DNA from: Sedimentisphaerales bacterium
GTDB lineage: Bacteria; Planctomycetota; Phycisphaerae; Sedimentisphaerales; Anaerobacaceae
Direction of reading: 5' to 3'
DNA length: 64,000 bases
Assembly (NCBI GenBank): GCA_016932095.1
Contig: JAFGDN010000053.1
Span: 1-64,000, forward strand
In this document: positions 14,880 to 51,604 of the stretch, piece by piece
How positions within the stretch are numbered: position 1 is the first letter of the stretch
Layout: every line of letters begins with the position of its first letter
Notes under the pieces: model-generated
Seen by the model: only the letters and a program-made list of their open reading frames with translations
Told to the model about the DNA's origin: nothing
Database searches by the model: none
Translations under genes and position numbers: made by a program

Positions 14880-14907
14880 TTCTCTGTGACCTCTGTGGCT
14901 CTGTGGC
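14880..14907 (-). repeat. CACAGAG nonamer array, copy 3, at the 3' end of proA
   Basis: Read on the minus strand, CACAGAG units recur with a 9-base step immediately after the proA stop. A further CACAGAG (14917-14923) encodes the His-Arg of the C-terminal HRVL residues of ProA, so the repeat has entered the coding end of the gene. Confidence 0.8.
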
Positions 14908-16202
14908 TACAAAACTCTGTGGCTGAATTTCCTTCGGCCATCGGCGTAGTCGGCCACGATTTGGCCTGAGCCGAGGAGTTTCCATTTGTAAATTACAAGG
15001 CCTTCAAGGCCGACGGGGCCGCGAGCGTGAATTTTTGTCGTGCTTATGCCGACCTCAGCGCCCAATCCATATCGATACCCGTCGCTGAAACGTGTGCTGC
15101 AATTCCAGAATACGCCTGCTGAATCAACCAAATCGAGGAATCTTTCCGCCGTCTCCTGAACCTGCGTAACAATCGCGTCTGTGTGGTGTGAGCCGTAGTG
15201 GTTTATGTGCTCGATGGCTTCATCGACACCATCGACAACCTTGAGCGACAGGATGTAATCGAGATATTCCGTCCACCAGTCCTTCTCCATAGCCGGCTTT
15301 ACTTTTATAATCGAGCGGGTCTTTTTGCAGCCGCGAAGTTCGACATTTTTGGCGTCGAAAACGGCCTTGACCTTCGGCAGAAATTCTTTAGCGATTTTGC
15401 TGTCAACAAGAAGCGTCTCAACGGCATTGCAGACCGCGACATACTGGCATTTCGAATCGACGGCGATTTTGACCGCCATATTGATATCGGCCTGACCATC
15501 GACGTAAACGTGGCAAATCCCTTCCGCATGGCCTAAGACGGGAATATTTGTATGGTTCATTATATAGCGGACAAATTCATTCGACCCGCGGGGGATTACC
15601 AGGTCAATATAGTCATCCTGTTTTAGCATTTCAGCGACGTGCTGTCTTGTCTCAAGCAGTTGAATCCAGCCAACAGGTATTTTCTCGCTTCTGCCTTCTG
15701 CCTTCTCACTGGTTGCGTCAGCAATAACCTTCGCTAAAATCTTATTTGTATTTGCTGCTTCTGAACCGCCCTTTAATAAAACCGCGTTTCCGCTTTTCAG
15801 GCACAGGGTTGAAATCTGCACAAGGGCATCAGGCCTTGATTCAAAGACGACGCCGATTACCCCGATAGGACAGCTTACCTTGTAAAGGTTAAGGCCCATA
15901 TCGAGTTCGGTAGCCGATAATGTTTTGCCGACCGGGTCGTCCAATTTAATTAAGCTTTCGATTCCTGCGCAAACGTCTGCGATTTTGCCCTCATCGAATT
16001 TCAGCCGTTTGAGAAGCGGCTTTACAATTTTATTCTTTTCAGCTAAGCGTAAATCCTTTTGGTTTGCTGCGATTATTTCTGAACTTCGGCTTTTCAATTG
16101 CTCTGCTATTTTCGAAAGCGCAGAATTTTTCATATCGGTCTTTACGGCCGATAACAGAATCGCCGCCGACTTCGCCTTTTTCGCCTTTTCTGATATACCC
16201 AT
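14907..16202 (-). CDS. proA: Glutamate-5-semialdehyde dehydrogenase (gamma-glutamyl phosphate reductase)
   Basis: The product reduces gamma-glutamyl phosphate to glutamate semialdehyde with NADPH, the second step of proline synthesis. I chose the ATG at 16202 (MGISEKAKKAK), preceded by GGAAG; the open frame continues upstream to 16376 but would cross the tRNA gene. Marks: SRPDALVQISTLCLKSGN, LKGGSEA, the catalytic Cys in VCNAVETLLV, and STRFSDGYRYGLGAEVGIST near the end. Length is 431 residues against 415-420 in the family. The surplus is explained by a translated heptamer array (residues ~165-174, SEKAEGRSEK) and a repeat-derived C-terminus (HRVL). Confidence 0.95.
   Translation of the reverse strand: MGISEKAKKAKSAAILLSAVKTDMKNSALSKIAEQLKSRSSEIIAANQKDLRLAEKNKIVKPLLKRLKFDEGKIADVCAGIESLIKLDDPVGKTLSATELDMGLNLYKVSCPIGVIGVVFESRPDALVQISTLCLKSGNAVLLKGGSEAANTNKILAKVIADATSEKAEGRSEKIPVGWIQLLETRQHVAEMLKQDDYIDLVIPRGSNEFVRYIMNHTNIPVLGHAEGICHVYVDGQADINMAVKIAVDSKCQYVAVCNAVETLLVDSKIAKEFLPKVKAVFDAKNVELRGCKKTRSIIKVKPAMEKDWWTEYLDYILSLKVVDGVDEAIEHINHYGSHHTDAIVTQVQETAERFLDLVDSAGVFWNCSTRFSDGYRYGLGAEVGISTTKIHARGPVGLEGLVIYKWKLLGSGQIVADYADGRRKFSHRVL
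15681..15708 (-). repeat. Heptamer array inside the proA coding sequence
   Basis: Four 7-base units on the plus strand read TTTCTCG, CTTCTGC, CTTCTGC, CTTCTCA. On the coding strand they are translated as the polar segment SEKAEGRSEK, between the helix DAT and IPVGWIQL. Confidence 0.85.
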
Positions 16203-16310
16203 TTTTCTTCCAGCTTTACATTCAGGTAATCTGACTTTATAATTAGACGAGACGTTGACGAGTATAAATAATAAATAGAAAATAATAAATAGAAAATCCG
16301 CCTTCGGCAC

Positions 16311-25596: not shown

Positions 25597-25638
25597 TCTC
25601 GTCCTTCGTCTCTCGTCACTCGTCTCTCGAATTTCGAG
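25597..25638 (-). repeat. Heptamer array between mreB and mreC supplying the mreC ribosome site
   Basis: Six 7-base units read TCTCGTC, CTTCGTC, TCTCGTC, ACTCGTC, TCTCGAA, TTTCGAG. On the minus strand the junction of the first two units makes AAGGAC, six bases from the mreC start. Confidence 0.9.
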
Positions 25639-29064: not shown

Positions 29065-30777
29065 TTATGGTTTCGGTTTTAACATTTTTTGAAAGATAAA
29101 CCGCTCGGCAAGCCGGGTTATTATGATTCCAGCTAAGCACAACTGGCAAGCGAAATCCAGCCAAAACCCGTATCTGCTGAAAAATGTTATCCTTGAATCA
29201 ATTGGAACCATATCGGCAAACCAGCCCTTAACGCCCTGCCTGTCAAACGCATTTTCCGGAAGGTTGCCGGCGGCGTAACCGTTTCTTATCTGCCCGAGCG
29301 AGTCAATCATACAGCTTATACCTGTATTGACGCAACGCAGCACCACCACCCTGTTTTCTATCGCCCGAAACACGCATATCGCCGTATGCTGAGCAAGCTC
29401 ACTGCTCGGCAACACCTTGTCATCCTTAAATCTCACGAACCACCCGTCATTACTTATATTAACAAGCCAGTCGATGCGTTTGCGGCCATCCTTGTCTAAA
29501 ACGAATCTTCTGACCATGTTCGGCACGGCGTCTTCGTAACAAATAATAACGCTGAAGCGATATGCCGCGCCGTTTTTACCCGCCATCTCGAAAGCCGTAT
29601 ATGTCTTACCAGCATCTAATGTGTAATCGAAATCGTAAGGCGAAAATTTCAGCAGCAGGTTGTGAATAAGCGGAATATTTTTGAAGGGCAGGTATTCGCC
29701 GAAGGGCACGAGGTGAATCTTGTAGTATTTCTGCGGCGACCGGCTGCCGTCGGGCTTATAGAGGAACGCCGAATTGAACTTTTCCGTCATTTTGATATCG
29801 CGGTTTTCCTCGATTGTGTGGTTTCCCCCATACGCCCCGACGAGCACATACGCCCCCTTTTGGGCGTGCACGCTTATCGTTTTATCGAAAATTTTATACG
29901 AATGTGATTCATCGAGCAGTCGTAACACCTGCGGTTCGAGTATCGCCTGCACCATTGTCTCGGGCCATACGATTAGTTCTGCGCCGCTTTGCAGACAAAG
30001 CTCACCTTCATTTAGCGCCTCATCGAAAATCTGCTGTTCCGCCTCAAACGATTCCTTCACCGACTGCGGCACATTGGTCTGCACCGCCCCAATCATAGGT
30101 CCCGACGTGATGAACCTATCCGATTGTCCGATTCGCCATTTGCCGTATATCAATGCTCCAGCAACCGCAGCAACAACGATTAAAATTGAGAATTTAGAAT
30201 TGAGAATTGAGAAACGCCAATCCTGCTTTTTTTCTAAATTCATAGCTGAGATTACCAATTGCGCGATTACCCCATTGGCCATAGCGACCAGAAACGACAC
30301 GCCCGCCGCCCCGAATATATCTGCTATTTGAATCAGGGCGGTATTGTCATACTGGCTGTGGCCAAGAAAGTGCCAGAAAAAACCGCCAAAAAACAATCCC
30401 TGTGACTTTTCCATTCCGACAACAAGTATCGGCACAGCTATAACAAGCGGTATTTTCCTGTTTATGCACCATCGCAGCGTTAAGGCCAGGAGCGGCCAAA
30501 GCAGCCCCAGATACATACAGGCCGCAATCCACCCCGCAACTGTCACAAAACTTATCCAGTAAATATTGCCCAGCCAGAAACACGTCCCGACGATATATGA
30601 CGCGAGATATAACCGGGATGGTTTACTTTTCGACGAACATACCAGGATAAACGGCACATACGCCGCCCATGCCAACGGCCACCACCCAATAGGCGCCTGC
30701 GCCAGCGTCAGCATTGCCGCAGTTAAGATAAACGCGGCTAAAGGACTCGCCATTTTGCGTATATTTGTGTGGTTCAC
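29065..30777 (-). CDS. lnt: Apolipoprotein N-acyltransferase
   Basis: The product (570 aa from the GTG at 30777; an ATG eight codons on is possible) adds the third acyl chain to lipoproteins in the inner membrane. An N-terminal block of about seven helices is followed by a nitrilase-like domain with the catalytic triad: Glu in VWPETMVQ (~270), Lys in the YKIHLVPFGEYLPF region and Cys in VIICYEDAVPN (~412). The GTGA start overlaps the stop of the upstream DNA methyltransferase gene. A heptamer array is translated as FSILNSKFSIL between membrane helices (residues ~189-199). Confidence 0.92.
   Translation of the reverse strand: MNHTNIRKMASPLAAFILTAAMLTLAQAPIGWWPLAWAAYVPFILVCSSKSKPSRLYLASYIVGTCFWLGNIYWISFVTVAGWIAACMYLGLLWPLLALTLRWCINRKIPLVIAVPILVVGMEKSQGLFFGGFFWHFLGHSQYDNTALIQIADIFGAAGVSFLVAMANGVIAQLVISAMNLEKKQDWRFSILNSKFSILIVVAAVAGALIYGKWRIGQSDRFITSGPMIGAVQTNVPQSVKESFEAEQQIFDEALNEGELCLQSGAELIVWPETMVQAILEPQVLRLLDESHSYKIFDKTISVHAQKGAYVLVGAYGGNHTIEENRDIKMTEKFNSAFLYKPDGSRSPQKYYKIHLVPFGEYLPFKNIPLIHNLLLKFSPYDFDYTLDAGKTYTAFEMAGKNGAAYRFSVIICYEDAVPNMVRRFVLDKDGRKRIDWLVNISNDGWFVRFKDDKVLPSSELAQHTAICVFRAIENRVVVLRCVNTGISCMIDSLGQIRNGYAAGNLPENAFDRQGVKGWFADMVPIDSRITFFSRYGFWLDFACQLCLAGIIITRLAERFIFQKMLKPKP
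30184..30211 (-). repeat. Heptamer array inside the lnt coding sequence
   Basis: Four 7-base units on the plus strand read AATTGAG, AATTTAG, AATTGAG, AATTGAG. They are translated on the minus strand as the repeated peptide FSILNSK-FSIL just before a membrane helix. Confidence 0.9.
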
Positions 30778-31820: not shown

Positions 31821-31835
31821 AGCGGCATTTTATAA

Positions 31836-31863
31836 ACTAAAAACCCAAAACTCAAAACTAAAA
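31836..31863. repeat. Heptamer array in the divergent DNA methyltransferase/prepilin region
   Basis: Four 7-base units read ACTAAAA, ACCCAAA, ACTCAAA, ACTAAAA. Confidence 0.8.
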
Positions 31864-31880
31864 ATTGATAACTCATTACT

Positions 31881-47515: not shown

Positions 47516-47562
47516 AAAGAGATTGCTTCGCTGCGCTCGCAAGGACAGCGGACGGGAGAGAG

Positions 47563-47590
47563 AATTTAGAATTAAGAATTTAGAATGAAG
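47563..47590 (+). repeat. AATTTAG heptamer array
   Basis: Four 7-base units read AATTTAG, AATTAAG, AATTTAG, AATGAAG. The same unit family as the array inside lnt (AATTGAG). Confidence 0.85.
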
Positions 47591-47790
47591 AAAGAAAATT
47601 CAAAGATAGCGAAAATAACGTAACTTCAGCATTATCAAGCGGTTATAAATCAGAATTCATCAGGAAAAGACGCTTTTTACACGTTTTTTCAGGTATTTTT
47701 CGGGCGTGATTTTTGTTGTAACTGCCTGCTGCGCAAGGGTTTAAATTCTGGACTCAAACGGTTGTTTAAAACATTTGTTTAAAACAATTG

Positions 47791-47923: not shown

Positions 47924-48022
47924 TCGCGCCTATAGAATGGAAAGACGCGCGAAGCGAAAAAGACGCTTCGCGAGAGAATAGAAAGTTGAAAGGTGAACAG
48001 GCGAGAAAGGAGAAATGAGGAT

Positions 48023-48050
48023 GACAGAAGGCGGAAGACAGAAGGCAGAG
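48023..48050 (+). repeat. GACAGAA heptamer array
   Basis: Four 7-base units read GACAGAA, GGCGGAA, GACAGAA, GGCAGAG, about 180 bases upstream of the portal gene. Confidence 0.85.
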
Positions 48051-48145
48051 AGAAATTCGTCAAACGGTTGCGGTTGCGCGGCTCGTATCGGTTGCGTAAA
48101 AGCGTCGATCGTCGATTCAGACGCAATCATTTACCGGTTGACGAA

Positions 48146-51538: not shown

Positions 51539-51540
51539 AG

Positions 51541-51604
51541 AACAGCGAACAGCAGGCAGCGGACAGCGAACAGATAAAACTGAACGCTGTTCGCTGAACG
51601 CTGT
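51541..51604 (+). repeat. Inverted heptamer arrays after the capsid gene
   Basis: Five units (AACAGCG, AACAGCA, GGCAGCG, GACAGCG, AACAGAT) at 51541-51575 are followed, after 7 bases, by three complementary ones (AACGCTG, TTCGCTG, AACGCTG) at 51583-51603. They can fold into a long hairpin that ends next to AAGGAGG of the next gene. Confidence 0.9.

Follow-up and report, generated by a model that had tools for sequence, protein, structure and literature searches.

Among repeats of 5-11 nt, many bacteria have heptamers most often, and an explanation by slippage/polymerase contact has been proposed for them (PMC4679880; PMC4692102; and work cited there). Cyanobacterial heptanucleotide repeats, such as the STRR of Calothrix and Nostoc and the repeats of the tRNA-Leu intron P6b loop, are degenerate tandem 7-mers that vary in copy number and lie inside functional genes, like the array described here in proA, a gene for proline biosynthesis in an uncultured planctomycete. 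In the Nostoc tRNA-Leu intron alternative repeat classes (Class 1 and Class 2) occur at one site (PMC3488679), as do different array types at the proA site. However, the intron repeats pair with each other in an RNA loop, whereas the proA array is translated as part of a protein and its genome holds many unit types. The Xanthomonas GGGAATC and Nostoc GGGGAYT heptamers likewise form arrays, mostly of about four units, that are dispersed, mainly intergenic, in some cases intragenic, and at a given position variable between related species; they are single G-rich motifs capable of G-quadruplex formation (PMC4692102). In contrast, many motifs coexist in the genome studied here, and the proA unit AAGGCAG has only GG, not the run of at least three G per unit expected of a G-quadruplex heptamer. 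Geobacter metallireducens also has elements of four tandem heptamers, with 49 copies within and between genes, but these follow one consensus (GGACCGG), interpreted as an element of RNA or regulatory nature, and the excerpted text of that report holds no analysis of in-frame polymorphism (PMC2700814). The dispersed tandem TAACTGA heptamers of Beggiatoaceae, for which translation and heptamer prevalence were discussed, are again a single motif, mainly found upstream of start codons (PMC4679880).

Like the STRR, the proA array consists of tandem units whose length is exactly 7 nt, has many dispersed and mainly intergenic counterparts in its genome and occupies a site that varies among relatives. 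It is a translated member of this known bacterial repeat class and not a new element. Unusual are the number of core enzymes that carry such arrays and the rapid turnover of the arrays between congeners; a partial literature search, not directed at planctomycetes, found no published report of heptamer arrays that are translated within core proteins of planctomycetes. A different kind of comparison had been drawn by the sequence-only reading, namely with Rickettsia palindromic elements. These mobile palindromes are longer, have a recognisable sequence and add in-frame peptides at tolerated sites of core proteins. The likeness holds for the outcome, in-frame insertions in housekeeping proteins (here ProA along with about ten further core proteins). 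The proA array itself differs: it is short, is not a palindrome and has no fixed sequence.

The proA gene lies in the window, the 64,000-nt stretch of DNA that was analysed as a whole. Its reading frame is intact, and the product matches two profiles over the whole length, TIGR00407 with 511 bits (cut-off 317, E 1.9e-153) and NF001221 with 554 bits (cut-off 289, E 2.5e-166). Sequence and translation bear out that a heptamer array encodes an in-frame decapeptide within ProA. Four 7-base units had been claimed, and the inner two are indeed perfect, while the outer two are degenerate. Tandem Repeats Finder (TRF) detected a core at 15688-15706 (period 7, 2.7 copies, 100% match), within a lag-7 segment at 15682-15706. 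The array is not alone in the window, where five lag-7 segments scored at least 12 compared to none in ten first-order shuffles; at this score the other periods from 4 to 12 gave none, except for two segments of period 9. Many genera (loci L033, L034, L036-L039, L041, L045, L048, L050, L053 and L056) also have a heptamer array of a different type, often ATTGATT, around 50-80 nt upstream of their proA, at the place where the window has its AAATAAT-type array (16264-16297). The inverted pair of arrays in the window could form a hairpin; L156 (6690/6754) holds a similar inverted pair, as does KdsB of congener G001 (L172).

Table 1. Genes and heptamer arrays in the window.
Feature	Coordinates	Strand	Remarks
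proA, gamma-glutamyl phosphate reductase	14907..16202	minus	ATG at 16202; NF001221/TIGR00407 profile matches
Translated heptamer segment in proA	15681..15710	minus	30 nt; 15710-15681 reads AGT GAG AAG GCA GAA GGC AGA AGC GAG AAA, SEKAEGRSEK; units (A)GTGAG AAGGCAG AAGGCAG AAGCGAG
Intergenic array, AAATAAT/AAATAGA type	16264..16297		a short way upstream of proA; also kept in G002, a congener
Array TCTCTCG/TCACTCG in gene junction	25599..25637		equivalent site without array in G001, G002 and G003
lnt, apolipoprotein N-acyltransferase	29065-30777
In-frame translated array in lnt	30184..30213	minus	FSILNSKFSI
Intergenic array, AAACTCA type	31831..31880
Intergenic array, AGAATTT/AGAATGA	47561..47596
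Intergenic array, AGAAGRC type as in proA	48019..48051
Intergenic inverted pair of arrays (GAACAGC... / CTGAACG...)	51540..51603

We compared the length of the ProA segment from SEAxxTN to EMLx in about 105 other loci, with some genes counted twice; the sources range from members of the window's own family to other phyla. The segment has 43 residues in these loci, outgroup genera included, and 49 in the window species (G000), in line with the earlier view that ProA is longer than usual at this point. These six extra residues correspond to a net gain of 18 nt relative to congeners with an empty site. The one further exception is congener G001 (PLLM01000046.1, fen_1362) with 52 residues (+27 nt). 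A DNA comparison of the four congeners revealed that the G001 insert consists of CAGCGGG/CAGCGTT heptamers and occupies the same codons as the AAGGCAG-type array of the window, while the site is empty in G002 and G003 (ACT GCA AAA TCA GGG and ACT GCG AAA GCC GGA). Thus, the site exists in three states among four congeners: empty in two, of the AAGGCAG type in one and of the CAGCGGG type in one. The insertion, which had been predicted to be missing from most homologues, is absent from all that were compared, save for the independent-looking array in G001. Nor did the identical peptide turn up in distant ProA homologues lacking heptamer periodicity. Some relatives natively carry 'SEKAG' at this loop, hence the first array codons may be old.

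In an alignment-based structure model the segment forms part of a loop that follows a helix (model residues 147-165) and precedes a strand (180-183). The model is of modest confidence (mean pLDDT 66; TM around 0.5 to ProA crystal structures) and the loop assignment therefore rests on local secondary structure and on alignment to solved structures, which also vary in length at this loop. Both the modelled helix-loop-strand arrangement and this length variation agree with the proposed insertion in a ProA loop.

ProA had been treated as a lone case, a view that does not survive a look at the rest of the genome. In a sample of 793 kb (the window and 45 further stretches, 27% of the genome), lag analysis recovered 83 period-7 arrays, compared to 22 of period 9, 15 of period 10 and 0-4 for each of the periods 4, 5, 6, 8, 11, 12 and 13. 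Their density is far higher in non-coding DNA (54 in around 85 kb, or about 64 per 100 kb) than in coding DNA (29 in around 708 kb, or about 4 per 100 kb), a roughly 15-fold depletion per kb. Sampled loci of the window's family contain around 6-19 period-7 arrays per 100 kb and those of other phyla around 4, a figure that includes one misplaced congener locus. The 83 arrays fall into 46 consensus classes, and units grade into one another inside single arrays. The same consensus unit recurs at different loci in 73 pairs compared to 18 for shuffled units, an excess of about fourfold. The AGAAGRC type, with 11 overlapping matches in the window genome, was considered as a marker of a single clade and rejected, because it occurs sporadically in 5 of 199 genomes sampled phylum-wide; other members of the family use other heptamers.

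Many core proteins of the genome carry such arrays in frame, among them ValRS, GyrA, MutL, CarA, TruA, PurQ, IspE (two arrays), KdsB (four arrays), class II RNR and Lnt. Families were assigned by Pfam, except for KdsB, which was named from its sequence. The protein analyses excluded arrays in doubtful ORFs (L128, L133 8541, L146 44 and L160 11446) and also the array at 16264 in the window, which lies in a read-through 5' extension of an ORF. In IspE, KdsB, PurQ, CarA, ValRS and TruA the corresponding loops of congeners are empty or contain other array types, and orthologous loops of IspE, KdsB, PurQ and TruA were also seen filled to different lengths. The IspE loop is filled in G000, G001 and G002 and empty in G003 and the outgroups; KdsB arrays of several unit types occur in 5 of 9 genomes and PurQ arrays in 4 of 8. 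The Lnt loop that carries the array is shorter in G001, G002 and G003. Net inserts relative to congeners amount to +15 nt in CarA and +9 nt in ValRS.

Three of these genes deserve separate description. The KdsB-like protein at L144 10581-11588 contains its four arrays, of different unit types, in one CDS, and parts of this CDS are common to G001 and G002 and missing from G003. ValRS (L133 12007-14889) carries the array peptide PSLVARRSSLA at residues 402-412. Variant forms of it occur in genera G017 and G032 and the congeners of the window species lack it, a pattern that could reflect retention of an old array, insertion on more than one occasion or gene transfer. In the MiaB-like gene at L163 16137-17789 the frame changes after the second array and the conserved C-terminal residues (VRVKITAVAEDG) lie in another frame, for which an assembly error is a possible cause.

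We conclude that the proA segment is probably a heptanucleotide simple-sequence array, one product of a genome-wide process, in which selection keeps loop insertions that are stop-free, frame-keeping and mostly hydrophilic. The array would have arisen within proA after the genus split from its relatives, by a process that continually makes and erases degenerate 7-base arrays across the genome. Replication slippage or template switching with a preference for steps of 7 nt may underlie it, and arrays may in addition be copied from one another. Any stop-free heptamer would be readable in all frames, and since 7 mod 3 = 1, an array on one strand yields the same seven-residue repeating peptide in any phase; the net length change, in turn, would have to be a multiple of three. 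Selection would purge nearly all genic arrays and spare those that are stop-free, keep the frame, sit in permissive loops or linkers and are mostly oriented such that a hydrophilic peptide is encoded. Indeed, when the peptides that the two strands of an array could encode are compared, the one on the coding strand is the more hydrophilic for 18 of 22 genic arrays (two-sided sign test, around 0.004), the membrane protein Lnt being one of the four exceptions. Selection for in-frame insertion had been suggested previously, but the coding depletion and the frame change beside the MiaB-like array point to purifying filtering instead. Because of this frame change we also reason that the arrays do not themselves preserve the frame, but that selection does. 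In ProA the array is likely tolerated without benefit to the enzyme.

A mobile palindrome of the Rickettsia type inserted in proA would have led to the same outcome, a peptide gained in frame by a housekeeping protein. No inverted repeats were found in 15600-15800, however, the array folds no better than its shuffles (z -0.82, no unusual hairpin), and purines make up 88% of the coding strand in its core, with no fixed element sequence. The missing inverted repeat and the ordinary fold rule this candidate out for practical purposes, and of the comparison with Rickettsia only the in-frame peptide remains. It is also very improbable that the peptide was selected for a function in ProA, such as regulation, an oligomer contact or a binding tag. 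The frame is maintained and two congeners have inserts at the same loop, but the two inserts differ in length and share little sequence, two congeners lack any insert, and similar arrays in many unrelated proteins speak for loops that permit insertion and against a role specific to ProA. Somewhat more weight can be given to an insertion that was ancestral to the genus, was lost in G002 and G003 and had its units replaced later in one lineage, although we regard this history as doubtful. On a tree of seven proteins, (G000,(G001,(G002,G003))), with G000 as outgroup to the other three, a history of one gain, one loss and subsequent unit turnover is exactly as costly as one of two gains, and loss seemingly does occur at a KdsB loop that is filled in G000, G001 and G002 and missing in G003. 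Yet, every unit would have had to change in concert from AAGGCAG to CGGGCAG/CGTTCAG, and both unit types are found elsewhere in these genomes as separate arrays. Since the units of G000 and G001 differ, two separate gains are favoured.

How the arrays reach their sites is a related matter. Net genic inserts (+18, +27, +15 and +9 nt) are multiples of three and not of seven, and in seven cases the array unit matched the empty site no better than the rest of the gene, a weak test for a local seed given 8-20% divergence. Hence, pure in-register slippage is insufficient. Both observations would suit very small mobile elements, that is, preformed heptamer blocks that are copied between loci by template switching, microhomology-mediated repair or a dedicated activity and came to lie in proA by chance. 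The recurrence of unit types at unrelated loci and the adjacency of differing array types in one loop, as in KdsB, fit this as well. Against it stand the lack of a fixed element, of defined ends and of inverted repeats, the gradation of units within single arrays, and a number of consensus classes that is diverse for a single mobile family, so that we consider such elements possible but rather unlikely. Slippage with adjusted ends and import of array pieces are both compatible with the data, and the recurrence of the same unit at separate loci speaks slightly in favour of copying to some extent or of a strong preference for certain sequences.

The over-representation of heptamers in bacteria is known. 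In the lineage studied here, sites in ProA, IspE, KdsB, CarA, PurQ and ValRS are empty in some congeners and filled in others; these natural before-and-after pairs make the origin of the insertions, by local slippage or from an imported block, as well as their turnover and cost, directly testable. A bolder idea, which we hold to be unlikely at present, is that a DNA-writing or template-switching activity with a 7-nt step is at work in the lineage and seeds arrays of many sequences throughout the genome. Translated independently of phase, these arrays would keep supplying essential enzymes with loop insertions. The arrays described here illustrate how a microsatellite without palindromic structure can remodel many core proteins at the same time.
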